A stretch of 64,000 nucleotides of DNA from NCBI GenBank assembly GCA_910589415.1, contig OU342636.1:5252437-5316436 (forward strand). Direction: 5' to 3'. Positions 23,580-64,000 of the stretch are shown here, one piece after another (positions within the stretch are counted from its first letter, which is position 1; each line of letters starts with the position of its first letter). The position numbers and the translations under genes were made by a program. This DNA comes from Malachius bipustulatus. Taxonomy: Eukaryota; Arthropoda; Insecta; Coleoptera; Melyridae. The notes beneath the pieces were generated by a model that was given only the letters and a program-made list of their open reading frames with translations, ran no database searches and was not told the DNA's origin.

Positions 23580-25010
23580 ATGAATCCCGTTCAAGCTTTA
23601 TTAAGTGAAGAACTCGCTTATGAAATAGCGATTAGAAAACAAGTCCCATTTAGTACACAGGAGAAAAGACGAATTCAATTTCGTGCCCTGTTAAATAGGG
23701 AAGAAAATTCTCTTTCTATTTCCGAATCTGTCTACCCCTTTGACAAAGATTCTGCAGAGGTGAAAAAGACTCTTGCAGATTTGAAAATCAAAATACAGGA
23801 CGCTCCCTTGTCTCTTAATGACCCTATCTGTCAAAGAATTCAATGTCGTCTGAAACATGTGATCTCTAGAATCAATAGATTCAAACTTGATCAAGATCCT
23901 GAAGCAAAAGCTTTAGCTGATGATTTATTCTCTGAGGCTCTAGAATTAGAAGGTCAATGGCTTCTGAAAAATGACCAGTCCCTAGACCAAACTGATAACT
24001 CATCCAATTCCCAGAGTGCATCAAGCTCTACTATCTCCACTCATTCTAGACCTAGTGTTCCAGTTTATAAATGGAATATTAAATTTTCTGGTTCTTCTAA
24101 GGATAATTTGATCCAATTTCTAGAAAAGGTCAAAGAACTTCAAAGGTCGAGAAATGTCACAGACCGTGATCTTTTTGATTCTGCAATGGATCTTTTTGAA
24201 GACAAGGCCCTGATTTGGTTTCGCAGTGTTGCAAGCTCAATTATTTCTTGGGAAGATCTCAAGAATAAATTGAAAATTACTTTTCTCCCCCTCTCTTACG
24301 ATGATGACCTCTTAGAGGAAATCAAACAAAGAACTCATGGTGAATTTGAGTTAGTTGCTATCTATGTTGCCTCGATGCAAGGCTTATTTAAGAGATTATC
24401 TACTCCCCCATCAGAAGTGGAACAATTTAAAATAATCAAGAAAAATCTTCATCCCTATTTCCAAAATCATCTTGCCCTAGTTGAGGTAAACAACATTCAG
24501 GACATAATTTCCATTGGAAAGAAGTTAGAAGATAATAGGACTATTGTCCAACAATATCGTCCCCCTCCCTCTAAGAAGGTTCAAAGTCTCTTAAATTCAG
24601 ACCTAGCATGTTCTGGAGAACCAGCTTCTTTTCCTTCTCGTAAAGCCAGAGGCACACCAACTAAAGGTGCACCTACACCTAGTAACTCCAAGATCTCAGT
24701 TACTAACCTTTCTGCAGTCTCCTGTTGGAATTGTTCCAACAAAGGTCATACCTATGTAAGGTGTAATCTCCCTAGAAAAGTTTTTTGTTATGGCTGTGGC
24801 CATAAAAATGTCTACAAGTCTAAATGCCCCTCATGTTCGACAGATTTCCTGAACTCTCTCAAAGTCACTTCTCGTTCAAAAAACGACGAAGTTGCACAAC
24901 AGGGTGCAGTGCGACAACAAGAGACAAGCCGCCCAAAGCGAGCCCTTGTAGAAAAGAGCTTGAGGTCAAAGGACGATCAGTCTCCTCCCTCTCCAAAAGA
25001 CCAGCACTAG
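23580..25010 (+). CDS. gag: Gypsy gag polyprotein
   Basis: A 476-residue frame starting at ATG 23580. Residues about 160-275 form the conserved capsid-like gag region of Ty3/Gypsy elements (motifs VYKWNIKFSG, DLFDSAMDLFEDKALIWFRS, WEDLKNKL). At about residues 381-395 there is a canonical CCHC zinc knuckle, CWNCSNKGHTYVRC. A second cysteine array follows (CYGCGHKNVYKSKCPSC), in which the usual His position is Val, so it probably binds zinc in another way. The tail is Ser/Lys/Pro-rich. Gag would assemble the virus-like particle and bind element RNA. The frame is intact and overlaps pol by 187 nt. Confidence 0.95.
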   Translation: MNPVQALLSEELAYEIAIRKQVPFSTQEKRRIQFRALLNREENSLSISESVYPFDKDSAEVKKTLADLKIKIQDAPLSLNDPICQRIQCRLKHVISRINRFKLDQDPEAKALADDLFSEALELEGQWLLKNDQSLDQTDNSSNSQSASSSTISTHSRPSVPVYKWNIKFSGSSKDNLIQFLEKVKELQRSRNVTDRDLFDSAMDLFEDKALIWFRSVASSIISWEDLKNKLKITFLPLSYDDDLLEEIKQRTHGEFELVAIYVASMQGLFKRLSTPPSEVEQFKIIKKNLHPYFQNHLALVEVNNIQDIISIGKKLEDNRTIVQQYRPPPSKKVQSLLNSDLACSGEPASFPSRKARGTPTKGAPTPSNSKISVTNLSAVSCWNCSNKGHTYVRCNLPRKVFCYGCGHKNVYKSKCPSCSTDFLNSLKVTSRSKNDEVAQQGAVRQQETSRPKRALVEKSLRSKDDQSPPSPKDQH

Positions 25011-28000
25011 TATCTTCCAGTTATCTTGTTGATTTCACTATTCAAAAGAAACAGTGGAAATCATGGTTGCAAAAAGTTGCAAACTTTTTCGAATCTTCTC
25101 GAATACCTCCTAAACAGGACATACCTAAACCAATACGTGCTGACTCTTTAATACCTGTTGTAGCCCCAATCTTACTATCTAACCCTGTTGATAATAGGCC
25201 ATTTATAGCTGTTAAAATGTGTGACGTACCTTATACAGCCCTCTTTGACACCGGCGCCAATATCTCTGTTTGTGATTTGGAAACCATGCAGGAAGTTCTG
25301 GGTGAACTACCCATCCCTTCCAAAAATTCGGATTTGTTGTGTTCCCTGAAAAATGCTGACGGTTCCCCTCTATCTGTTATCGACATAATTGAACTTGATC
25401 TGACCATAGATGACGTCACAAAGAAAGTCCAATTCCATGTGGTATCTTCCATTTCACCACAAATTATCTTAGGAATAGACGTAGCTCGTATTTTCAACAT
25501 GATGATTAATTTCGTAAATGAATCTTTCGAAGTTCATCCCGGTGATCCTTCGTCTTCATTATCTTCTATCTTACCTAATGAACTTAAGGTTTGCGCTATC
25601 AATAAGATTCAGGATATATCTTGTTTACCTCCTACCGACCTGTCTAGACTTGAATCGACGATAGACAAATTCAAAAGTTTGGCCCGTGTTGATATACTCC
25701 CTGAAACCAATGTGCTATGCCATTCCATAGAAACAAAAGACGCTAAGCCTTTTAGACAGAGACAATATCCATTATCTCCAACCCTTCAACAATATCTGAA
25801 TGAAGAGGTAGATAAATTACTTAAGTTAGAAATTGTCGAAAAAAGTAATTCTCCTTGGGTGTCCCCTGTTCTTTTGGTCCGCAAGAAAGACAAAACATAC
25901 CGTATGTGTTTTGATGGTCGGAAACTAAACGAGATCACCACACATGACTCATATCCCCTGCCTAGAATCGATACTATCTTGAGCAAGCTCAAAGACGCTA
26001 ATTATCTTACCTCCATCGATTTAAAGCAGGCTTTCTTTCAAGTTCCTTTGGACGAAGAATCCCGCCCAAAGACCGCTTTCGTAGTTCCCGGGAGAGGTTT
26101 ATTCCAATTCCGACGAATGCCTTTCGGACTGAGAAACAGTGCTCAAACCCAACAACGACTTATGGACACAATTTTAGGTCCAGCTTTGGAGCCATTTGTT
26201 TTCGTGTATCTAGACGATATAATTATCGCCACGAATAGTTTCGAGAAACATCTGGAAATTTTAAGGGAAGTATACGAGCGTTTAAAAGACGCTAACCTTA
26301 CAGTCAACTTCGACAAATGTCACTTCTGTCGAGATTCTCTCTCCTTTTTGGGTTTTATTATCGATAGAAACGGATTGCGAGTTAGTGAAGAGAAAGTTAA
26401 ATCGATTATTGAGTCCCCTGTTCCTCATAACACCACTGGAGTAAGACACGTCCTAGGTATCTTACAATATTATAGGCGTTTCATAAAGGATTTTTCTACC
26501 ATCAGTGCTCCTATCTCAGCTCTGCTGCATAACCGAAAAAAGGGACAGTCAATAACTTGGAACTCAGAAGCTGATCAAGCTTTTAAACTTCTCAAGGAAC
26601 GACTAACTACAGCTCCCGTTCTAGCTAGCCCAGATTTCTCGAAGCCCTTTTGCATACAGACGGATGCAAGTGATTTCGGGTTAGGTGCAGTGCTCTTTCA
26701 AATTGAGGGAGATTTTGAACACCCCATTGCTTTTGCTAGTCGAATGCTCTCAAAAGCCGAGAAGAAATACACCGTTACCGAAAGAGAATGTTTAGGTGTC
26801 CTCTTTGGTATAGAATATTTTCGCCCTTATGTCGAAGGCGCAAATTTTACAGTTTACACCGATCATGCCTCTCTTCTCTGGCTTCGCACGTTAAAAGATC
26901 CTATGGGTCGCGTAGCTAGATGGTGTTTACGCCTCAGCCAGTTTGATTTCGACATTAAACATCGAAAAGGCACTTGCAATGTCCCTGCAGACTATCTTTC
27001 CCGTTCTATTTCTTCTATCTCTCTCCAAAACTTTGTACCTGATGATTGGTATAAAGACATGGTCTCCAAAGTTACCGAGTTTCCTGAGAAATACCCTGAC
27101 TTTACCATCAAAGACAATATTCTTTATAAACATGTTAAGCCTCGAGTGGAAGTCGTGTCTAACCTATCTGATTGGAAAATTGTTGTCCCTACTCCTAATC
27201 GGGAAGAAATAATTGCTCAATTTCATGATCCTCCAACTTCTGCGCATTTTGGAGTAAGTAAAACTTTGGCGAGAATATCTGAAGTTTATTATTGGCCCAA
27301 AATGATTATCTCAGTCAAAAAGTACGTGAGAAACTGCCAGGTTTGTGGTGCACACAAAGCCCCAAACGCTGCTCGCGTAGGACTCATGGGTAATTATAAG
27401 AAAATCAATTTTCCCTTCCAATTTCTCTCCATTGACTTCATGGGACCTTTCCCTCGATCTAAGGCTAGAAACACCCAACTTTTAGTCATCACCGATTGGT
27501 TTTCGAAGTTCGTTTTGGTTAAACCAATGCCTAATGCTACAGCAGCTGCCGTCACAAAATTTCTTGAGAACCAAGTGTTCCTAATTTTCGGTGTGCCCCA
27601 AATTCTGCTTTGTGACAACGCTCAAATTTTTAAAAGCAGTCTATTTACTAATTTGCTGAAAAACTACGAAGTTAATTTGTGGTATAGCGCCAGGCATTTA
27701 TCTCAGGTGAATCCGACCGAGAGAACGAATCGTACCATCCTTACAGCCATCTCATCTTACATCCGTGACAATCATAAAGATTGGGATAAAAATGTTTATA
27801 AAATTGCACAAGCAATTAACTTATCGGTGAGCGAAGTTACTAAACACGCTCCAGCTTTCCTACTTTTCGCTAGAAATGTCCCTGTAGACGGAACCTTTTA
27901 CGGTCCAGTCTCAGATAATTATCTAGAATTACCTGATGATCTGTCTTATGTTCATCGAGAACAAGACATATCTAAATTACCTCCTATCTTCAGCGATATA

Positions 28001-28294
28001 CGTGATAGACTTAAGAAAGCTTACGAAGTAAGTAAGAAACATTACGACTTACGCAAACGCCCCGATGTTTTCACCGAGGGTGACCTCGTCTGGAAACATA
28101 CCTACCCACTTTCGAATGCCGCAAAGAATTTTGCCGCTAAATTGGCCCCAAAATTCGTACTGTGTCGGATATCTAAAGTAGTGTCTAAATTAGTGTACGA
28201 ATTACAAGACCAAGAAGGCAATCACCTAGGTCGCTGGCATTCTAAAGATTTGAAGGCTTATCGAGGCGAAGACCCGCCGAAAAGCGACGAATAG
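24824..28294 (+). CDS. pol: Gypsy pol polyprotein (PR-RT-RNase H-IN)
   Basis: The pol frame opens right after a TAA at 24821-24823 and runs 1156 codons. It lies in the -1 frame relative to gag, so the ATG at 24824 need not be used; a frameshift at 24878-24884 would make Gag-Pol. Domains in order: protease with FDTGANIS (about residue 137); reverse transcriptase with YLDDIII (about 462-468); RNase H with TDASDFGLGAVL (about 613); integrase zinc finger with paired His (HDPPTSAHFG) and Cys (CQVC) at about 801-841; integrase core with the three acidic residues in SIDFMGP, LLCDNAQIF and NPTERTNR. A basic C-terminal domain ends ...GRWHSKDLKAYRG. All catalytic residues I could check are present. Confidence 0.96.
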   Translation: MPLMFDRFPELSQSHFSFKKRRSCTTGCSATTRDKPPKASPCRKELEVKGRSVSSLSKRPALVSSSYLVDFTIQKKQWKSWLQKVANFFESSRIPPKQDIPKPIRADSLIPVVAPILLSNPVDNRPFIAVKMCDVPYTALFDTGANISVCDLETMQEVLGELPIPSKNSDLLCSLKNADGSPLSVIDIIELDLTIDDVTKKVQFHVVSSISPQIILGIDVARIFNMMINFVNESFEVHPGDPSSSLSSILPNELKVCAINKIQDISCLPPTDLSRLESTIDKFKSLARVDILPETNVLCHSIETKDAKPFRQRQYPLSPTLQQYLNEEVDKLLKLEIVEKSNSPWVSPVLLVRKKDKTYRMCFDGRKLNEITTHDSYPLPRIDTILSKLKDANYLTSIDLKQAFFQVPLDEESRPKTAFVVPGRGLFQFRRMPFGLRNSAQTQQRLMDTILGPALEPFVFVYLDDIIIATNSFEKHLEILREVYERLKDANLTVNFDKCHFCRDSLSFLGFIIDRNGLRVSEEKVKSIIESPVPHNTTGVRHVLGILQYYRRFIKDFSTISAPISALLHNRKKGQSITWNSEADQAFKLLKERLTTAPVLASPDFSKPFCIQTDASDFGLGAVLFQIEGDFEHPIAFASRMLSKAEKKYTVTERECLGVLFGIEYFRPYVEGANFTVYTDHASLLWLRTLKDPMGRVARWCLRLSQFDFDIKHRKGTCNVPADYLSRSISSISLQNFVPDDWYKDMVSKVTEFPEKYPDFTIKDNILYKHVKPRVEVVSNLSDWKIVVPTPNREEIIAQFHDPPTSAHFGVSKTLARISEVYYWPKMIISVKKYVRNCQVCGAHKAPNAARVGLMGNYKKINFPFQFLSIDFMGPFPRSKARNTQLLVITDWFSKFVLVKPMPNATAAAVTKFLENQVFLIFGVPQILLCDNAQIFKSSLFTNLLKNYEVNLWYSARHLSQVNPTERTNRTILTAISSYIRDNHKDWDKNVYKIAQAINLSVSEVTKHAPAFLLFARNVPVDGTFYGPVSDNYLELPDDLSYVHREQDISKLPPIFSDIRDRLKKAYEVSKKHYDLRKRPDVFTEGDLVWKHTYPLSNAAKNFAAKLAPKFVLCRISKVVSKLVYELQDQEGNHLGRWHSKDLKAYRGEDPPKSDE
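24878..24884 (+). promoter_or_regulatory. -1 ribosomal frameshift slippery site A_AAA_AAC
   Basis: In the gag frame the codons read TCA AAA AAC, so the heptamer A AAA AAC is in the exact phase for simultaneous slippage into the pol frame (next codon CGA at 24884). Six nt downstream, at 24891, begins a possible stem (GTTG..CAC pairing with GTG..CAAC about 20 nt later). This is the classic -1 frameshift layout of retroviruses. Confidence 0.75.
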
Positions 28295-51567: not shown

Positions 51568-53100
51568 TTCTTCAAACGTGGGCAAATTTAAGCCAGAACA
51601 TCATTTTTAATTGAAGGAAAGCGAAATTTCAAAAGGTTTGGACTGGTATAAGTAGGTGAGTATGGAGTATGGGCTGCTTCTATAGAAACGCGGCGCTGTT
51701 AAATTGACACTGTCATCAACGTCAGTGAACATCGAGAAATTATTATTGAAATTATTAAAGAAAAATAATAAAATAATAATTATGTAACTAAACTACTAAT
51801 CATCGCAAAATCAAAATTAAAAACGTTATAAAAGTTTGTAAGTAAGTTATAAAATTAATGATAACATCTACCTACCTCTTGCTAGACCCTGCTTGGTCGA
51901 TTTTTTCATTTTCTGTTAATGATGATGCCAGTGTCAGAAGTTGAATGTTAAATATGTAGGTCATAACTGTGCACTAATACTTACCTAATAATAAAAATAT
52001 AAGATGTTGGATTCCTTTATGTTGTAGCAACGCGGGCCTCCTGCCTGTTTATGCAAGACAACCGGTTACGAGGTCCCCTGTTGATAGTCAACCTTTTGAT
52101 TTTTTTTTTAGCCGAGCGGAACTAAAGTTTTTTGAAAGGAAGTCGTGGAGCCGGATCTGACCACTGGCATACACCGTGGCGATCTCGAGTGTCAAATTCA
52201 CTAAAGAGAAACAATAGAAAAAAAAAATCTATACGTACCTTAAAAAAAAAAAAAAAGCAAAATAATTTTCAATGACTCTGCCCCAGGCCTCTCTTCTGAT
52301 TCGGAACTATTAGTGTTCCTGTTTTTTATATTATGTCTTAGGAGAGTTAATTACACTCCTAACTTAGCTTTTTCTTTTGTTTAGTTGGTCTGATTGAAAT
52401 TAAGAAAATTAAATAAAAAAAAATAATTTAATGAAATTTTCTCTATGTTATTTATATCACTTAACAGACCATTCGTTTTGTTTAATTTTAATATGTCTGG
52501 GTGAGCAAAATTAAATTCATGAATTTAATTTAATAAATTTTATTTATAAAATAATAATATAAACGTACAAAACACTAAATAATTTGATAGCTATACTATG
52601 CCCCTAGTACCTACAATAGATTTCACTTAATTTTCCCTCACGGATGCATCGAAATTGTGAGAGATATAATATAAACTATTACCTTTAATAATAATAATAC
52701 CTAGTAATTAAGTTTATTTACCCCTTTATTGGTAAAATCAATCTTTGATTAATAGTTGGTACTTTATCCTTTATTACAGTAACCATACCTTACAAGTAGT
52801 AAATAATTACAAAATTATTTACCTTGGTATATAACAACATCAAAAAAAAAATCTTAGTGCCTTTTTGACACGACACACTCAAGGTGTATTTTATTTAGCA
52901 ACCTGTGGGTTATTCATCCACAACTGTCTATTAAATTGTCTGACTTTATTGAACGGTAACCCTTAAGGTTCCAAAATATACCAAAGTACATAAGTATTAG
53001 TATACAGAAATCTCTGACCTTTCTCCTTTTAAGGAAAATCCGAATGTATCCAAAGAATCCAATTATTGGGCACTTCACTGAGACATTACCCGTATTACGA
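51568..53100. other. AT-rich region, possible short interspersed element at 52.02-52.42 kb
   Basis: Bases 52018-52420 begin GTAGCAACGCGGGCC and end with a TTAGGAG/CTCCTAA hairpin and A-rich tail, a SINE- or LINE-end-like layout, but I cannot assign it. The rest is A/T-rich without genes. The left end of the envelope-bearing retroelement is somewhere near the right border. Confidence 0.35.
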
Positions 53101-54126
53101 CCGTGTAATAATTATTATTCCTATTCGGGATAACTGATTATTCACTCACAAATAACTGCGAATATTTTAACTAAAAATTATTGAAGAATAATTTTCTTAA
53201 TCAACTTCAAGAAAGTTCGCGGTTCTACTTCGCGTATCTAATTTTTTTACTTAGCTAACAACCACTTAGTTTTAAATAACAAGACTAATTTCGCGGATAA
53301 CCGTCGCGACGCCAATTAGATTAATTATTCTGGTTAACTACCAGAGACTTTTCGCGTTCCCCAAACTGTTACGACGACAGCTGAAAGGAGACTCCCGTTT
53401 CCTCTTTGAAATTTTTTAATTCCCACTTTTTCGAGTTAGTCGGTTTGACCGCCTACTTCTTAATTCTTGGCTTAGACGTTTTACCCCCAAGGCTACTTAA
53501 CTTCCCAATCAGAGTTCTGATGCCAATGTCCGAATATTTTCCTCTTTTTCTCTCATTAAATAATTTGGAACCGCCCTCTCACTAACTCCGCCTTTCCAGT
53601 TGAACGGTTTTCGTTCCCACAGTTCCAATTGACCTCGCTCAGCGGTTTTTCGAAAACGCAGTTTTGATCACGTCCGAAACTTAATCTTTTATACAATAGT
53701 TTAGTCTGGCGGCTATTAATTCAACAATGTCTCTCTGTACTCACGCCGCTGACCATCTGGTTTTGATAATTAGCATCCTACTAAAAGGCTCTACATGATT
53801 TTTGAGCAGTTTTTAATCTGGGAAAATAATTCTAATCTGTTCTCTTGAGTTTTAATTTCGAGTTGGGTCTTTATTAATGACCTTACCTTCCTGTGCCGCC
53901 GTCGGACTACAGGCGTATTTGGTTTCCCTAGTGCTGATCTTACCAGAATTATTGCTTCAATGCCCGCTTATATTATATTTCCCGTCTGCTTATGTAATGA
54001 AATCTAAATTCGGACGTTCCATAAATTGGATTACATCATCTTGAAAGAGTTTTATTAAATTTATAAAACTCTTAAATATTAAATAATTATAGAAATTGAA
54101 TTATCTATTCGATCCTTTACATAACT
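53101..54126 (-). repeat. 3' LTR (approximate)
   Basis: Read on the reverse strand, the LTR should begin at about 54121-54126 (AGTTATGTAAAGG), just after a polypurine tract. A TATA box TATAAAAG lies at 53686-53693, about 435 bp in, a plausible U3/R layout. The left end is not defined; TGTAATAATTATT at 53105 is one candidate terminus. No second LTR is available for comparison. Confidence 0.5.
53686..53693 (-). promoter_or_regulatory. TATA box in LTR
   Basis: TATAAAAG on the reverse strand within the proposed LTR. Confidence 0.5.
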
Positions 54127-54390: not shown

Positions 54391-56379
54391 CTAGGTCGTG
54401 GCACTGACCTTGTCTGTCCAGTGAGTTGGGTTTGCATTATGAGGCAACGTAGGATATAGCACGTGCACCACCTGACCTTGTCCTTCAGCTTCCCGTTCGG
54501 TACGCGCTTCGTTTACGTGTGATTCGGTCACTTTTATTGTCTCAAGTTCCTTCTCGTCTGCACTTTCTCGCGTTTGTTTCCACAAATGTTTTTGCACTAA
54601 CATTACCGTGAGCGAATTCCAGATGCACGCGAGGAGTTTCCACCCGTAACCTAGAGTTTGATACAAGTGTAGTCCATTTAACACTACTCCAATTACGTAT
54701 TTACAGATTCTAAAGACCACATAGAATCCGATAACTCCACTGATAAAAGTTCCTAGATCTACAAACCAACCCCAAGTTTGTTTGAGTGTAGATCGCGTTA
54801 GTTCCTTCAACTCTTCCGGGTTGAAGATTCCGAGAGTGGAATACCCTTGTCCACTTGTGGGCATTCCCGCGACACGACGCGTGATAATGTTTTCGACGGC
54901 TTTACGTTCGATCCCAAACGTCAATAGTCGCTGCACCTTGTTGACTTCTTCCTGGGTGTAGAGTCCTGCTTGTCCTAATGGCAATATCGGTTTGAACGTC
55001 AGTTTCGGCTTGGCTTCCACTGGCAACTTCTCTGGATCTCTCTTCCCAGTCGGATACGGCGTTAGTCCTACCCATTCAGTATCTATTTCATATAGAGGAG
55101 GCGCGACACCGTTGCACTCTATCTGTTCAGCATAAACCTGTATTACATGAGTGATTGGAGACATGAAATAAGGTTTTTCGTCTAGAGTGATGGGTAACTC
55201 ATTATAACACTCTGAGGTACGCCTGATTATCACTACCTTGGGAGTGCATTTCATAATATATAGGACTTCTCCCAAAACTCTTCCTACGTATCCTGGTTCA
55301 TTTTTCAACAGCTGGCTGACAGCGTTTGGTGAAAATGGAGCCATTAGTAACCGGTTCCTCAGGATTTCTCGCTGTAGTAGACATCTTCTATGTAGGACAT
55401 CTAGATATAATCTTTCCAATTCTCCTTTGTAAGCCTGCTCTATGTACAGAAATTTACTGTTCATGTACATGAGTAGGTCAGTATTCTGAGGTATCAATTT
55501 CATACCTGAAGTTTGCGTCAAGGCTGTGTTATTTATTGTCAACACCAGCCTAGGGTGTTCAGTCTGCCACACTTCGTCGCCGCACAGTGAAATTTTCTTC
55601 ACCATAGTGAGGGCGAAGATTTTATCATTGCTTTCCACGATCATAAATTTCTCCTTCGTGGTTCGACTGGTGACTTGTCTTGCTTTACCTGTATAGAGCA
55701 AGGTAAAGTAGTTTAAACACCCGGATTCTCTTTCTTCTTCCCATACGGTTTCTCCGTACACTGTATCAAAACAATATTCAGCCAAATATGGACACGTGAT
55801 TCCACTCAATAAACTGATTTCATTTTCTTCGATTTTGACGCTAGCAAAATAGTCTCTCGTCTTGATCGTTATAGCTGCTACAATTACAATATTTTCCCAG
55901 AAGTTCCCTGCTTCTTGGTAGCTGATTCCTTCGCAGTACCCATTTGCGTGCAATGTTCCATGTATTGTCAAGGAAGCTTGTGTACTTCCATTCATAACTA
56001 TTTGTCCTATTACTTGATTGAATAGGCGCAAAGTTTTGTATCTATGTACTTCTTGGCATTGTTGTGCTCCCAGCTGATATACGTAGCTTGACATACTTCC
56101 ACTGACCACAGAACTGTGTGATAAGTGACCACAATAGAACTTGGTTTGGATGACTTCTACTAAACAAGTCATCACCTTCTGGAGTTTCACCTGATTTCGC
56201 TGGACGACGCTGACGTCTACCTTTTCCACAACGTATTCTGATTCTGGTTCTGGACATTCTGCTACATCCTTGATTGACACTGTTGATATGTTTGTTCGCA
56301 CATCTTCACAGTCGTAGGCTATCAAGCTCCAACATTGAACTAGCCCTAGTAGAAAACTTATTGACGTTAGGATATGCAT
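54391..56379 (-). CDS. env: Captured viral envelope glycoprotein, chuvirus-like
   Basis: I place the start at ATG 56379 (context GGTACCATGC) rather than at the upstream in-frame GTG, because the hydrophobic signal peptide begins right there. The product is about 662 residues: signal peptide (1-16), Cys-rich ectodomain with several N-glycosylation sequons (an NGS and an NNT among them), a long hydrophobic segment at about residues 538-575, a second hydrophobic stretch, and a polar tail of about 60 residues. The ectodomain pattern (Cys/His-rich start, NGST followed by a HGT-x-GxCxG block, YCFDTVYG) resembles glycoproteins of Chuviridae (class III fusion proteins), which insects are known to have captured repeatedly. 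It would mediate membrane fusion at the cell surface. The frame is intact. It is probably made from a spliced mRNA. Family assignment is by pattern only. Confidence 0.65.
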   Translation of the reverse strand: MHILTSISFLLGLVQCWSLIAYDCEDVRTNISTVSIKDVAECPEPESEYVVEKVDVSVVQRNQVKLQKVMTCLVEVIQTKFYCGHLSHSSVVSGSMSSYVYQLGAQQCQEVHRYKTLRLFNQVIGQIVMNGSTQASLTIHGTLHANGYCEGISYQEAGNFWENIVIVAAITIKTRDYFASVKIEENEISLLSGITCPYLAEYCFDTVYGETVWEEERESGCLNYFTLLYTGKARQVTSRTTKEKFMIVESNDKIFALTMVKKISLCGDEVWQTEHPRLVLTINNTALTQTSGMKLIPQNTDLLMYMNSKFLYIEQAYKGELERLYLDVLHRRCLLQREILRNRLLMAPFSPNAVSQLLKNEPGYVGRVLGEVLYIMKCTPKVVIIRRTSECYNELPITLDEKPYFMSPITHVIQVYAEQIECNGVAPPLYEIDTEWVGLTPYPTGKRDPEKLPVEAKPKLTFKPILPLGQAGLYTQEEVNKVQRLLTFGIERKAVENIITRRVAGMPTSGQGYSTLGIFNPEELKELTRSTLKQTWGWFVDLGTFISGVIGFYVVFRICKYVIGVVLNGLHLYQTLGYGWKLLACIWNSLTVMLVQKHLWKQTRESADEKELETIKVTESHVNEARTEREAEGQGQVVHVLYPTLPHNANPTHWTDKVSATT

Positions 56380-57523
56380 GGTACCGATCGCGGATGAATT
56401 CACGAAATTGTTTATGACGTTTCTGTCTTTAACTTGGGATTCACTAATGTCCTCACACTTGCAGTTCGTGTTGTCACCTTTTGAAAATCACACTTTATTA
56501 ATTCAGTTCGTCATTTTATTTAAATTCCACCCTATACCTTATGCATTCACTCCTAATTTTATTTCTACAATACAGTACATTTCTATTTTATCTACAGCAC
56601 CTTGCTGTTAGTCTACAATCTAACCTTACTGTTAGTTTTTAATACAAAATACATATTCAAATTTACAATGAACAATAATAAGTGTTCGATCTCTGTCGAA
56701 CAGACCAGATGCTTACTCAATGGGAGTAACCATCCTGCCTTTTCCAGTTTCATCATTTACTGGGTCGTATTTTCTCGTTTATTATGACGTTTGAAAATTT
56801 GAATTGAATTTTCCTCCTTAATTCAAAAATTTCGAACTTTGAAAAAGTCCCTTCAATGATACTTTTGATCCATTGATTGTGTGTCCTTGACCTTGGATCT
56901 TTATTATCCATTATTAGTTTTGTTCGGGGAATACTTAACTTGTTAACTCCCTGGGCTGAACCTGACCTTATTCAATGAATTAATTTCATCCCCTGGAGGA
57001 AATTATTTATCCCTTACCTCCCATTTATCTATGATTTCCTGACGATTTTATGCACGTCGGATATTTTGAGGTCACAAGGAAAACTGGTTGCTAGTTGCAT
57101 CACCTGAACAGAGTTAATCATAACCCTTACCTTTTGTTGTTCACCATTCAGGTGCCTGGTTCTATCCTTCACCTTAACTTTCACCATTTTGGTTAATTCT
57201 AGCCTTTCTACGATTAATTATTAATTATAGGTGTATAATAACCTAGATAATTATTTACTCTATACTGATAATTATATTTCCATTAAATACTCTTTTTAAA
57301 TTAAATATGAAAACTTCCAGGTAGAACTTTGGTCCTCCGTCATCGTCACACGGAGAACTGAGCGGATAACAGGGTGACACCTACATCAGACCCTCCAATG
57401 CCACGATTCGGAAGCCCAAACTTCACTCTGTACACTACTCTCAACCTATTCCTTAAGCTAATCCTATCGCATACCTTAATAATTATCGGAATCTACTAAA
57501 AATTGCTATTAAAAGAAACTAAA
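56380..57523 (-). other. Non-coding part between accessory ORF and env
   Basis: The env frame stays open upstream to about 56487 without ATG, and a TTTTCAAAAG on the reverse strand at about 56476 could be a splice acceptor. Otherwise A/T-rich, with no gene seen. Confidence 0.4.
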
Positions 57524-58695: not shown

Positions 58696-61600
58696 CTACA
58701 AATCCAACCGAACAGGCGGTCGTCGTAGTCTGGTAGATCTCCGCGGAAGTGGTCTTTCTGGGGAAATTGGAGCCGGTAATCTAGCTATTGGCTGAGGTGG
58801 CGCCATCATGGCGGGCGTTGGATAGTACATTATCTGTGGACAGAACGGCAAATACATCTGCGCGTTTCTCTGTGCCTCCTTCCTGGCTCGTCGTACTTCC
58901 GGATCCTCTTCCTCGTCCGAGAGTTCTTCACTTTCCTCATTAAATGAGTCTTCCCTTGTTCTACGCTGTCGGCGTTTTGACCTTGATCCTGATTTATTTT
59001 CTTGTCCGTAGGACTCTTCTGGGTCTTCTTCTTCTTCTTCCTCAGTGTCGATTTCTTCATCCGTTTCACTGTCAGATTCCCTATTTGAGGTTTGTGTAGG
59101 CCTGTTGCCCTTCCTAGGTTTGCCCTTAGCTTCTTTTTGCTCTGTAGTCTCATACAGCTCGCTCCTTTTGACATAAGGTTTCATCCTGTCTATCATGACG
59201 GTATATTCTTTATTTTTCCCTTGTTGTTTAACCACAAATGTCTTCTCTCCTAATACTTCGACAATTGTCATGGGGCCAACCCATGTTGAACTTAATTTTC
59301 TCGACAGTCCTAATTTGGCTGCCATATCTTTCACATAGACTAAGTCTCCTTCCTGGAAACTTTTCCTTTTCGTGTTTTTGTCGTATTGAGCTTTTCTCTG
59401 GAGTCCCGCTTTTTCCAGGTTTTCATTCACCGCTCGATACACATTCCTTAGACGTTCTGAAAGTTCTGAGGAGTAGTCTTCATCATAGTCGTATCTCCTC
59501 CTGGTAGATGTTACAAAATCATCTACTGGTAACCTTTGCTCTCGTCCATGTACGAGATAGAATGGACTATGCCCTGTGGAGGAATGCACTCTTCCTCTTA
59601 TTGCCATCAACACATAAGGAACATATTCGTCCCAATCTTGTTGATTTTTTGATACGTAATGCGAAAGCATTATTTTCAGATCCCTGTGCATTCTTTCAAT
59701 GCTGCCATTTTCATTTGGGGAATAACTAGCAGTGTGTACTTGTTTTATTCCCATTAACTTACACACTTCTTTCATCAGAGTTGAAGTAAATTCTGCCCCT
59801 AGGTCACTAAGTAATTTTCTTGGTGTCCCATGTCTTGTGAACACATGTTCCACTAAAGCTCTTGCTACAGTTTCTGCTTTATGATCAGCAAGAGGAATGG
59901 CTTCTGGATATTTAGTAAACAGATCCTGTACTGTCAATAAATATCGATTTCCCCGATGTGTTCTTACTAAGGGTCCCACAATGTCCATAGAAATCATCTC
60001 GAAAGGTCCTGAAGGATTATTAAAAAGCTTCATGGGTGCCTTTCCTAAATGCGGAGAAGTTTTTCTCCTTTGACATTGATCACAGCTTTGGCAATATTCT
60101 ATGATGTCCTTCCTCATAGATGGCCAATAAAATCTTGTACTGATGATTCCAAGTGTTTTTTCCTGACCTGGATGTCCAATTAAGGGTGGATCATGAAATT
60201 CCGAAAGAACCTTGGCTATCATTTTCTTAGGTATTACTAGGATATCATCATGATCTTGATTACGAGATAAATATAAAACTCCCTTCCTGTCCACATGGTA
60301 TTTTTCAAGGATATCAGGTTCCTCAGCCTGATACTGCTGTAGTATTCCACTACAGTATTCATCTTGCTCCTGTAATTTTTTAATAATTTCTTTATCCCAT
60401 GTAGGTTCCCAATCTAAATCTGTTCTTAGCAAATTCACTTTTGCTTCTTCCGTTGCTAAGTCTACATTTTCATAAATGGTTACTTCGATGTTGGAATTAT
60501 AGAAAATGAAATTAATCATATTTTTCACCTCCTTCCAATCAAGTTTATCTCTTCCACATCCCAATTTAGGTATCGCGATATGAGAATCATTATTTTCTTT
60601 GCACGTCTCCTTTAGATCAGACAAAGCGAGCCACAAAATTTTATAAGTTGGTTTTTGGTGGAATTTCCCTTTTGTAATTAAATAGTAAATATTCCTTCTT
60701 GGAAGATTAAGTTGCGCGACTTCTCCGATTACTTTATCCTGATCTTTTAACTCCTTAATGCATCCAAATTTTCTTCTGAAAATTTCGGCTATTCCTTTTT
60801 CCATCGCAAAGTCTAGCGACACACAATGCGCCAGAGAATAATTCTCAGGTGCGTCGAATAAATTCCCAGGTTGATGATGCACATTTTTCGCTACTGGAAT
60901 GTCATTTTTTCGTGCGTATTCCTGGAATTCTTCGTACGTGATTTGCAGATAATTATCTTCCTTATTGTGCATCCTGCTCAGACTGTCAGCATTTGAGTGC
61001 ACTCTTCCGGGTCGATGAACTACCTCATATTCATATGTTCCTAATTGTAGCGCCCATCTAGTTAATCTGGAGCTAGGGTCGTTCATGTTCATCATCCATT
61101 TTAAGGGACGATGATCGGTTATTATTAAAAAGGGTTTTCCGTACAGAAAACATCTAAATTGTTTGACTCCAAACATGACTGCAGCTAACTCTCTTTCAGT
61201 AGCTGTGTAATTCATTTGTGCTTTATTGAATTGTTTTGAAGCGTACGCCACTGGCTTCTCGTGACCCGCACGTGATTGACTCAGTATGGCACCTGATCCA
61301 GAGCCACTCGCGTCGACCTCGAGTATGAATGGTTGAGATAGGTCTGGAAAAATCAACAGAGTATCCGATGTCAGTGCGACCTTTAGTTTATCGATGGCCT
61401 CCAGTACTTCGTTTGTAATTTTAAACGGCACGTCCTTCTTGGTTAATTGGGTTAATGGTGCCGACACTTTAGATATGTTTGGTATGAATCTTCTGTAAAA
61501 ATTTACAAGTCCCATAAATGAACGTACTCCTCTCACATTTCTTGGAATAGGGAATTCGCTTATTGCTTCGATTTTTCCTGGGTCTGGTTTTACACCATCT

Positions 61601-63894
61601 TGACAAATAATATGTCCTAAGTATTTTACTTGTCTCTTCAGAAAATCGCATTTCTCAGCCTTAAGTTTGATGTTTGCTTCTCTTAGTCGTTCCATGACTT
61701 TTTCCAATCTGTCTAAGTGGTCGTCTATTCCACCAGCGTTGAATATTATAATGTCATCTAAATACACCATACAAATATCTCCTGTTAATCCTGCCATGAT
61801 GGTTGACATGAATCTTTGAAATGTGGCCGGAGCATTGCAGAGTCCGAAAGGCATTTTCATGTATTCAAAGTGATTATTATAAGTTGAAAAAGCTGTGAGT
61901 GGAATGTCTTTTTCTTCAATTTCGATTTGATGATACGCTTGCGTAATGTCAACTGTTGTGAAAAGCATTTCTTTACCTGGCGTGTAAACTTGCGTGATAT
62001 CAGCGATATTTGGCAGAGGGTAGTATTCCTTTTGCGTTACTGCATTTAATCCTCTGTAGTCAATACACAATCTCAGTTTCTCTGTACCGTCTGGCTGCTC
62101 CTTTACGACTAACACTACTGGTGCTGACCAAGGACTACTTGAAGGTCGAATGATGCCTTGCTGCAACAATTTGTCGATCTCAGCCTGAACTTTTTCTCGC
62201 TTATGAAACGGGATTCTGTATGGAGGCTTGCAAATCGGCTTTGTTCCTGGCTCAAGAGTTATGTGATGTTTGACTTTTCCAGTGGTAGTTAAAGCTTTAC
62301 CTTCATCTTGGAATAAATCTCGAAATTTATACAAAAATTTCTCCAACTTAGCGCGATCTTGATCGTTCAAATGTTTCAAATTAAATTTTTCTTTGCAATC
62401 TTCCTGTGCTTCTGAGACTTTGTGCACTTGGCCAATTACTTCTTCAGGTAATTCTTCACCACTACATGCCATGGCAATTTTCGTATTTTTCGGTAGTTTT
62501 ATTTCTTGATCAGATGTATTTAGTACGATCACAGACACATCCAGCTGTGACTTTTCTACTACTCTTGCAACCTGAAGTCCTTTGTGATTTAATTCGATTG
62601 GTTCGATCACTAAAATTCTTCCCATCAAAGGATGCTTGCATCTTCCTGGTAAGACAGTCTGTCCTCTTGGTTTAATTATTACACTTGTTTTCAATGTCAC
62701 AAGTGTCTCTGAAGGTAATTCTTCTTCCTGGTTGGTCAGTTCATGCTTGCTTTTTGCTTCCTGCTCTTCTTCCTTGATCATAGCTTCCAAGGCATCCTTT
62801 TCCAAATTTACCATAAATTTAAGCATTTCTTGTTGTTCTTTTTGCATGTTTTCCTCGTCGGTATTTTTCTCGGAATTTATCTTTGGTCTAGAACATTCCA
62901 AAATTTTCCTTTCACTTCCTCTCAGTTTCCTGAATCTTTCTTCAAATTCATAGTTGTAGACGAAATCTCTAACAAATTCTAACCATTCCTCCCATTCTGA
63001 TTGAGTAGTTTTTCCTGAAGAAAACTTGTTTTTCTTCTTTTCCAAATTTTCGAAGTTGTGAGAATTTTTTCCCACTTTCCGGTTTGTCGCGTAACCATTT
63101 TTCGAGGAATTCTTCTTCCTTTTTGGTCTTGATATTACATTTTTCGGAGTTGCTGTCCCTTGATCCAAACCTTCTTCTGGTTTTTCCGGAGTTTGTTCGA
63201 ACTTCTGTGTCCTTGGCGAAGTCTCGCGTCGAGGTTGTCTTACCTTCTTGGACCTTTGAATTATTCTAGAATTTATCCATTCATTCTGGATCGGTTTTCT
63301 CGCTGGTTTTCTTATGTACTCCTTTTCCTGGGGCGTAGACCTAGGGTATTCTTGACAACTACTACGGCCTGCTACAACGTCGCTATATTTTCGGGAATTT
63401 TGTCCTTGACTAACTGAGTGTTTCCCTGATTTTTTACTTGTCACAAAATATATTCCAGCCTCTTGCATTCGATATTCCGCTTGCTCACTATTTAATAATG
63501 ATAGGGATGCTCCCCACAAGCGAATCTGTGATGTCCCTGTCTTGTAATACTGCATGCTGCAATTGTTTCGTTTCAGGAAATCTCTTCCTAGCAGAACATC
63601 CGAATCTTCGAACATTCCATCGTCTACAATAACAAAAGGAGTTGTGACTTGAACGCGTGACCTTGGTCTTGCATCCACAATTAAATTTGTCATTCCTTTC
63701 AAGGGCAGGGAGTGGCCTGTCACTCCTAAAATTTTCAATCGATTTTTCATAGAAAAAATTTCCGCCCTTCGTGGTACAATGCTCTCCTTAATAAGAGAGA
63801 CAGAGGCTCCTGAATCTAATAAACATTTCCTGGGTGTGCCGTTTACATTTAAAATTACCAAATACGGGACGGCATCTGTCGTAAATTCTTCCAT
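58696..63894 (-). CDS. pol: Gypsy pol polyprotein with inserted macro domain (PR-RT-RNase H-macro-IN), partial
   Basis: 1732 codons from the first ATG at 63894, but the frame is open without a stop to the window edge, so the protein (perhaps Gag-Pol) starts further right. Domains: protease DSGAS at residue 27; a long Lys/Glu-rich linker (about 150-440); the pre-RT domain; RT with YLDD at 711-714; RNase H with VDASGSGSGAIL (about 860); a macro domain at about 1005-1142; integrase zinc finger (HDPPLIGHPG ... CQSCDQC, about 1230-1275); integrase core with catalytic D1304, D1364 and E1400 (35 residues between the last two); a GPM-type C-terminal module; then an acidic and Arg/Pro-rich tail ending PVRLDL. 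The macro domain keeps Lys1075 (YLITK) and Asp1116 (GCGRD), the same 41-residue spacing as catalytic Lys84 and Asp125 of human TARG1. No stop or frameshift is seen. Confidence 0.93.
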   Translation of the reverse strand: MEEFTTDAVPYLVILNVNGTPRKCLLDSGASVSLIKESIVPRRAEIFSMKNRLKILGVTGHSLPLKGMTNLIVDARPRSRVQVTTPFVIVDDGMFEDSDVLLGRDFLKRNNCSMQYYKTGTSQIRLWGASLSLLNSEQAEYRMQEAGIYFVTSKKSGKHSVSQGQNSRKYSDVVAGRSSCQEYPRSTPQEKEYIRKPARKPIQNEWINSRIIQRSKKVRQPRRETSPRTQKFEQTPEKPEEGLDQGTATPKNVISRPKRKKNSSKNGYATNRKVGKNSHNFENLEKKKNKFSSGKTTQSEWEEWLEFVRDFVYNYEFEERFRKLRGSERKILECSRPKINSEKNTDEENMQKEQQEMLKFMVNLEKDALEAMIKEEEQEAKSKHELTNQEEELPSETLVTLKTSVIIKPRGQTVLPGRCKHPLMGRILVIEPIELNHKGLQVARVVEKSQLDVSVIVLNTSDQEIKLPKNTKIAMACSGEELPEEVIGQVHKVSEAQEDCKEKFNLKHLNDQDRAKLEKFLYKFRDLFQDEGKALTTTGKVKHHITLEPGTKPICKPPYRIPFHKREKVQAEIDKLLQQGIIRPSSSPWSAPVVLVVKEQPDGTEKLRLCIDYRGLNAVTQKEYYPLPNIADITQVYTPGKEMLFTTVDITQAYHQIEIEEKDIPLTAFSTYNNHFEYMKMPFGLCNAPATFQRFMSTIMAGLTGDICMVYLDDIIIFNAGGIDDHLDRLEKVMERLREANIKLKAEKCDFLKRQVKYLGHIICQDGVKPDPGKIEAISEFPIPRNVRGVRSFMGLVNFYRRFIPNISKVSAPLTQLTKKDVPFKITNEVLEAIDKLKVALTSDTLLIFPDLSQPFILEVDASGSGSGAILSQSRAGHEKPVAYASKQFNKAQMNYTATERELAAVMFGVKQFRCFLYGKPFLIITDHRPLKWMMNMNDPSSRLTRWALQLGTYEYEVVHRPGRVHSNADSLSRMHNKEDNYLQITYEEFQEYARKNDIPVAKNVHHQPGNLFDAPENYSLAHCVSLDFAMEKGIAEIFRRKFGCIKELKDQDKVIGEVAQLNLPRRNIYYLITKGKFHQKPTYKILWLALSDLKETCKENNDSHIAIPKLGCGRDKLDWKEVKNMINFIFYNSNIEVTIYENVDLATEEAKVNLLRTDLDWEPTWDKEIIKKLQEQDEYCSGILQQYQAEEPDILEKYHVDRKGVLYLSRNQDHDDILVIPKKMIAKVLSEFHDPPLIGHPGQEKTLGIISTRFYWPSMRKDIIEYCQSCDQCQRRKTSPHLGKAPMKLFNNPSGPFEMISMDIVGPLVRTHRGNRYLLTVQDLFTKYPEAIPLADHKAETVARALVEHVFTRHGTPRKLLSDLGAEFTSTLMKEVCKLMGIKQVHTASYSPNENGSIERMHRDLKIMLSHYVSKNQQDWDEYVPYVLMAIRGRVHSSTGHSPFYLVHGREQRLPVDDFVTSTRRRYDYDEDYSSELSERLRNVYRAVNENLEKAGLQRKAQYDKNTKRKSFQEGDLVYVKDMAAKLGLSRKLSSTWVGPMTIVEVLGEKTFVVKQQGKNKEYTVMIDRMKPYVKRSELYETTEQKEAKGKPRKGNRPTQTSNRESDSETDEEIDTEEEEEEDPEESYGQENKSGSRSKRRQRRTREDSFNEESEELSDEEEDPEVRRARKEAQRNAQMYLPFCPQIMYYPTPAMMAPPQPIARLPAPISPERPLPRRSTRLRRPPVRLDL
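60465..60880 (-). other. Macro domain (TARG1/OARD1-like) within pol
   Basis: Part of the pol frame, residues about 1005-1142. Motifs in order: GNLFDAPENYSLAHCVS (start of the fold, ADP-ribose pocket), EKGIAEIFRRKFG, IYYLITKG with the putative nucleophile Lys, KPTYKILWLALSDLK, IAIPKLGCGRDKLDWKEV with the putative acid/base Asp, and a final beta strand IEVTIYEN. In the known family this fold removes ADP-ribose from glutamate/aspartate of modified proteins. Predicted activity is inferred, not shown. Confidence 0.85.
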
Positions 63895-64000
63895 CAGTGG
63901 AATATTCCCGTATACTTTGGCATGTGTTCCCCCTGTAAAACTATGGCTTTCTGGCTGGGGATGGCCAGGATGCCTGTTTAGTTTAAAGACGGTGACGAAC
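63895..64000 (-). CDS. Upstream continuation of the pol/gag-pol frame
   Basis: In the same frame as pol there is no stop codon from 63894 to the edge; the reading (HPGHPQPESHSF, GGTHAKVYGNIPL) is Pro/His/Gly-rich, as expected of a linker between gag and protease. It suggests either a single Gag-Pol frame or a frameshift site beyond the window. Confidence 0.7.

Follow-up and report, generated by a model that had tools for sequence, protein, structure and literature searches.

A 64,000-nucleotide stretch of the Malachius bipustulatus genome (contig OU342636.1, positions 5,252,437 to 5,316,436; the whole stretch is called the window here) holds a Ty3/gypsy retroelement with an envelope gene, and we found that a segment of its Gag-Pol is, as judged from sequence comparison and structural modelling, translated as a folded macro domain of the TARG1 type. 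We favour a role for this domain as an eraser of host ADP-ribosylation. Pol is encoded on the minus strand, its frame running from window position 63999 down to 58696 and leaving the window at its end. It encodes, in order, protease, reverse transcriptase (RT), RNase H, macro domain, H2C2 domain and integrase core, with the macro core coded by 60466-60879. A first-pass annotation made from the letters alone had proposed a TARG1-like macro domain between RNase H and integrase, naming no strand; domain mapping confirmed the position, and the matches described below confirmed the identity. The features of pol are as follows.

58696 to 63999, minus strand: pol open frame, continuing beyond the window end (1778 residues in full)
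63550 to 63864, minus strand: retroviral-type aspartyl protease (Pfam and domain mapping)
61591 to 62100, minus strand: reverse transcriptase core (Pfam and domain mapping)
61015 to 61416, minus strand: RNase H (Pfam and domain mapping)
60457 to 60897, minus strand: predicted TARG1/OARD1-type macro domain at the RNase H/integrase junction (phmmer, AlphaFold2 model, alignments)
60670 to 60672, minus strand: codon for the Lys that aligns with catalytic Lys84 of TARG1 (structural and sequence alignments)
60547 to 60549, minus strand: codon for the Asp that aligns with Asp125 of TARG1 (structural and sequence alignments)
60046 to 60249, minus strand: integrase H2C2 zinc-binding domain (Pfam and domain mapping)
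59440 to 60015, minus strand: integrase core (Pfam and domain mapping)

Among PDB chains, the best phmmer match of the macro segment was human C6orf130/TARG1 (E 3.8e-34), and the AlphaFold2 model, predicted as a macro fold at a mean confidence (pLDDT) of 90.3, likewise had TARG1 as its top structural match. Against Pfam Macro (PF01661) the window piece scored 20.3 bits (E 5.3e-4), short of the curated cut-off of 22; despite this we regard the fold as settled, because of the TARG1 match and the model. A precomputed Macro match is also absent from several relatives named OARD1. Since residues 25-165 of the model align structurally with 12-152 of 4j5r_A, its invariant Lys97 and Asp138, 41 residues apart, correspond to residues 84 and 125 of TARG1, as the first-pass annotation had suggested. 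Human TARG1/OARD1, the terminal ADP-ribose protein glycohydrolase, has in common with the window domain its fold, its length, the Lys and Asp with their 41-residue spacing and the motifs LAHC, KPTY and GCGxD; it differs in the glycine loop, which reads MGAGIA in TARG1 and MEKGIA in the window, and in that the window macro belongs to a gypsy pol polyprotein. We take Asp125 of TARG1 to be catalytic. A passage in PMC8501950 describes K84 as catalytic. Chance or a frame artefact was ruled out by the open frame, the phmmer match, the genome copies, the AlphaFold2 model and the structural match.

A search of the genome (544 Mb, 52 contigs) with the 138-residue macro segment scored 150 of its 166 candidates, which makes the family counts lower bounds, and gave at least 110 matches with an E value of 0.001 or better. 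Families were grouped by identity, and the grouping was checked by domain mapping at the fetched loci. Family A, to which the window copy belongs, comprises at least 17 matches at 96-100% identity (11 of them at 100%), 16 of which have no stop within the segment. A one-off insertion was thereby ruled out, and the first-pass annotation's question of whether other copies carry the segment was answered. Family B has at least 22 matches at 63-65% identity (16 equal in score, 3 near full length and 3 partial), family C at least 16 at 41-46%, family D at least 6 at 44-48% and family F at least 5 at 31-35%. The remaining 44 are mixed; nine loci among them (L017, L018, L021-L024, L026-L028), which we call E type, have a macro domain, and queries for RT, RNase H and integrase found no match within 9.5-9.9 kb of it.

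Domain mapping by queries for protease, RT, RNase H, macro, H2C2 and integrase placed the macro between RNase H and H2C2 in families B (L010, L011), D (L015, L016, L025) and F (L019, L020), with the macro of L025 split over two frames, and behind the C-terminal part of integrase in family C (L012, L013, L014). RNase H and H2C2 matches stand 255 residues apart in families A and B; family D has 254, family F 182 and family C 117. Ten family C macro matches lie together at C7 6.009-6.063 Mb (G000:C7:6008892-6062818, including L013), where four of nine spacings are 5.62-5.66 kb; this is a local tandem array, and two copies in L013 are 99% alike. At the family C pol end in L012 (3585-4496, minus strand), CCCH-type zinc finger matches lie 3' of the macro (E 0.0017-0.0056, all below cut-off). 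Family B has a tandem array with a 66-base (22-codon) period in its open pol frame, in the protease-RT interval (L010:844-1926 and L011:6192-7280). The E-type loci L017, L018 and L022 have common blocks of 0.7-1.2 kb around the macro at 81-87% identity and thus form a multi-copy family.

Alignment showed that the catalytic Lys and Asp are kept in families A, B and C, as well as in four database proteins, P0007, P0005, P0018 and P0017, and that the binding loop is mostly preserved in A, B and C; the second-site motif is GCDED in B and AYGRD in one C copy. Family D has Asn in place of the Lys, a gap at the Asp and no glycine loop, with a macro profile match at probability 99.1 over 125 columns. 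Family F has the Lys and Asp and has lost LAHC and the glycine loop; its kinship with macro domains is seen in a search whose results include family B macros at E 1.1e-10 and in a profile match at probability 98.9 over 100 columns. These losses speak for a structural spacer, in which ADP-ribose chemistry is irrelevant and the fold serves as part of the junction from RT to integrase, since the insert still separates RNase H from H2C2 in both D and F. So do the insert lengths given above, with 117 residues only in C, whose macro sits elsewhere, and the model of the F segment, whose second half is the more confident (block means 77-94 for residues 71-160, 39-52 for residues 1-70). A spacer does not suit A and B, however, which retain the catalytic pair and most of the loop motifs.

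Selection on the macro also bears on this. Comparing the window copy with three diverged family A copies, we counted 7, 9 and 9.5 synonymous and 4, 5 and 5.5 nonsynonymous changes, giving nonsynonymous-to-synonymous ratios (pN/pS) of 0.138, 0.134 and 0.142 (P against the neutral share 0.0017, 0.0003 and 0.0007); the three pairs among the diverged copies gave 0.048, 0.123 and 0.136. These pairs, like those of B and D given below, have lineages in common and are not independent. Integrase gave 0 and 0.092 in the usable pairs; the integrase rows of L031, which had matched a different sequence, were left out. The family A macro is thus under purifying selection, which argues against a spacer. The family D macro is indistinguishable from neutral in three pairs (pN/pS 0.27, 0.66 and 1.6), and this absence of clear constraint, which also tells against a spacer, comes from just 2, 7 and 7 changes. 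We therefore consider a spacer an unlikely explanation in general, with D probably and F perhaps fitting it.

In retroviruses, domains encoded in pol are made in Gag-Pol amounts and packaged alongside RT and integrase. Because the macro lies within Gag-Pol, its packaging with these enzymes is expected: it would be produced in the same amounts and enter the particle with them. The most economical account is that an eraser would then work in the particle or the pre-integration complex. We hold it fairly probable that the domain is an ADP-ribosyl hydrolase of this kind, which would take host-placed ADP-ribose off element proteins, cDNA or the chromatin of the insertion site. Hydrolase activity is the firmer part and seems quite likely, and a benefit to the element through that activity reasonably so. 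The role that the first-pass annotation proposed, an active eraser that would counter host poly(ADP-ribose) polymerases (PARPs) or aid integration, is likewise inferred. According to passages of PMC8501950, TARG1 strips Glu and Asp of ADP-ribose and clears it from DNA thymidine as DarG does, with Lys84 required for DNA. Protein Glu/Asp on the one hand, and DNA ends with single-stranded DNA thymidine, which TARG1 can also act on, on the other, are each no better than tentative candidates for the relevant substrate. DarG, a bacterial antitoxin whose macrodomain removes ADP-ribose from DNA, differs in its toxin-antitoxin context and is less similar to the window domain.

Several results weigh against an active eraser. 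Despite a degraded macro, open frames reach 1767-1769 residues in three D matches and 1272-1323 in all five F matches; with the catalytic pair gone in D, the glycine loop gone in F and the frames open, activity would therefore be dispensable in these relatives, and an intact active site is unnecessary for the persistence of the wider lineage. In the window pairs of family A, macro constraint (0.134-0.142) is weaker than that of RNase H (0.026, 0.051 and 0.014) and could be compatible with folding alone. For family B macros the test was weak, with two pairs of 4 + 4 changes each, and fell short of significance (P 0.063 and 0.064), and the literature searched yielded no link between PARPs and such elements.

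The placements of the macro also allow for an ADP-ribose reader, a domain that would attach to (poly-)ADP-ribosylated chromatin and guide the integration complex, much as chromoviruses have a chromodomain behind integrase. Families A, B, D and F have the macro ahead of the integrase zinc domain, C has it just behind integrase, and P0005 behind integrase and a chromodomain, and the mostly intact binding loop of A, B and C would suit such a reader. The catalytic Lys is unnecessary for binding, yet Lys and Asp are retained in all of A, B, C, P0007, P0005, P0018 and P0017, and we consider a reader rather unlikely.

Protein searches gave 14 of 227 candidates with a 700-residue query, 12 of those again with a 901-residue query, and 52 of 59 with the macro alone; the named matches of the 700-residue query were from Diabrotica, Athalia, Euwallacea, aphids and the caddisfly Arctopsyche. 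In P0007, from the sawfly Athalia rosae, an RNase H end (by eye) is followed by a macro with all motifs and then by H2C2 and integrase (Pfam). With the other families of the beetle, this sawfly element shows the macro beyond family A; the first-pass annotation had suggested looking for the insertion in arthropod gypsy pol sequences. At about residues 395-510 of P0007, adjoining H2C2, there is a possible second, degenerate macro (hhalign probability 71). P0018 has a macro directly followed by an apparent H2C2 start (by eye). P0005 has integrase, chromodomain, macro and then a region weakly resembling a rhabdovirus glycoprotein (E 0.0019, below cut-off), and in P0017 RT is preceded by a macro that phmmer detected and Pfam did not. 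P0012 (GDSL esterase by Pfam, PHD assigned by eye) and P0011 (GDSL below cut-off, coiled coil assigned by eye) look like the first open reading frame product (ORF1) of CR1-like long interspersed nuclear elements (LINEs), the CR1 affiliation being our assumption. P0004, P0006, P0008-P0010 and P0013-P0016 had no clear retroelement character.

We next consider descent, including a recent accidental capture from host OARD1-like genes with no selected role. The genome does have OARD1-like E-type loci with no RT or integrase nearby (nine examined), and a grouping of A, B and C with four of them was not rejected (approximately unbiased test, p-AU 0.238). The best 47-row macro tree nevertheless sets A, B and C apart from the 44 other rows with support 100/95 (86/84 with P0018 added), A is only 42-44% identical to those four loci, and the macro occurs also in C, F and D, whose RT is just 42-66% identical to that of A. 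Together with purifying selection on the family A macro, this makes such a capture very improbable. A single origin of the six retroelement rows was not rejected (p-AU 0.239). An RT tree of eight rows, containing no named references, joined F to A, B and D (98/95) and P0017 to C (95/91), and an integrase tree put P0007 and P0005 beside F (94/94, long branches). On these two trees, the macro may have been inserted between RNase H and integrase before F diverged from A, B and D.

Macro placements over the LTR (long terminal repeat) lineages thus include the RNase H-integrase junction, the region behind integrase and that before RT, and LINE-type ORF1 proteins with PHD or coiled coil and GDSL esterase seem to carry the TARG1-type module too. 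It is possible, though we put it forward tentatively, that TARG1-type erasers of ADP-ribose move among animal retroelements as a module, that the ancestor of F, A, B and D had it at the RNase H-integrase junction, and that D and F hold worn-down remnants. If so, ADP-ribosylation would be an old invertebrate host defence against retroelements and the eraser the element's answer. Macro domains of RNA viruses are known tools against PARPs, and those of alphaviruses have the macro fold in common with the window domain. An active-looking TARG1 domain in a young, env-bearing gypsy pol would extend this conflict to retroelements, with cDNA or chromatin as possible targets, and suggests that certain retroelements come with an eraser of their own. 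Families A and B, with the pair kept, and D and F, degraded, provide a natural comparison within one genome, which predicts that the A and B domains are hydrolytic and that of D is not.

Accessory enzymes of retroelements are already known in kind. Passages of PMC5408684 describe dUTPase at varying places, in vertebrate retroviruses and in the protease-RT interval of bdelloid rotifer LTR elements, where enzyme and substrate are unlike those of the window macro, and GDSL or DEDDy ORFs shared among retroelements. A passage of PMC4977317, citing Basta et al. 2009, reports macro-domain or CNPase ORFs in fish endogenous retroviruses; these are likewise retroelements with a captured macro domain, in the form of additional ORFs of epsilon-like elements of ray-finned fish, whereas the window macro lies inside gypsy pol. 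Macro ORFs in fish are thus already published, a point to set beside the first-pass annotation. Among the matches listed from the open PMC literature (subscription papers being outside it), no title or abstract opening described a macro domain in gypsy pol. The main texts of PMC12440569, PMC10084718 and PMC12992720 contain no word beginning "macro", and that of PMC7642597 lacks the term "macro domain". Queries with the macro, the F integrase or the B integrase found no relatives in the viral contig database. A BFVD fold search gave no named Metaviridae protein among the 50 matches listed, many of them nameless; macro relatives among these included Kadipiro virus VP8 and proteins of thrips-associated flavi-like and virga-like viruses and of iridescent viruses. 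By tblastn, 17 phage records (H1-H17) have TARG1-like macro domains at 25-38% identity, a few of which carry the annotation O-acetyl-ADP-ribose deacetylase 1-like.

The remainder of the element has the following features.

52023 to 54121, minus strand: 3' LTR of 2,099 bases, with the same sequence as the 5' LTR, which lies beyond the window at L009:1955-4053
54391 to 56403, minus strand: envelope ORF of 670 residues, Monjiviricetes fusion glycoprotein of chuvirus type (Pfam PF24664, E 3e-175)
63978 to 63987, minus strand: gag stop codon (63978-63980), directly 3' of the heptamer TTTAAAC (63981-63987), in T TTA AAC phase

The LTRs begin with TG and end with CA, ATGT on either flank forms a 4-base target duplication, and the 0 differences over 2,099 bases give a rough 95% upper bound on divergence of 0.0014; the insertion is therefore young. 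The gag translation has two CCHC motifs, identified by eye, and ends at T TTA AAC TAA, with pol in the -1 frame. Heptamers of the T TTA AAC type are classic -1 slippery sequences. Identical LTRs, target duplication, gag zinc knuckles and the order protease, RT, RNase H, integrase mark the element as Ty3/gypsy, and the chuvirus-type envelope downstream makes it an env-bearing gypsy rather than a plain retrotransposon. That envelope is PF24664 and not the Baculovirus F type of errantiviruses, which family F of the same genome carries (Baculo_F, E 2e-60). PF24664 was found also in one copy each of family B (L010, E 1.7e-180) and family D (L025, E 2.4e-177), and the window envelope is partly matched in L011, L015 and L016. 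With its LTRs and open frames, the window element looks like a Gypsy capture of a Jingchuvirales-type glycoprotein; a passage of PMC10084718 places such glycoproteins near Gypsy fragments, with no clear evidence there of capture by Gypsy. Anakin, a group of BEL/Pao elements (PMC7642597), similarly shows capture of a chuvirus-type envelope by an LTR element, on a BEL/Pao pol, in contrast to the Ty3/gypsy-type pol with macro of the window; for the latter, Pfam at E 0.001 gave only RVT_1, RT_RNaseH, H2C2, rve and aspartyl protease families. Elsewhere in the window lies another gypsy element (24824-28294, plus strand; gag 23580-25010, plus strand), which has no macro; by Pfam bounds its RNase H-H2C2 interval is about 80 residues, against 266 in family A.
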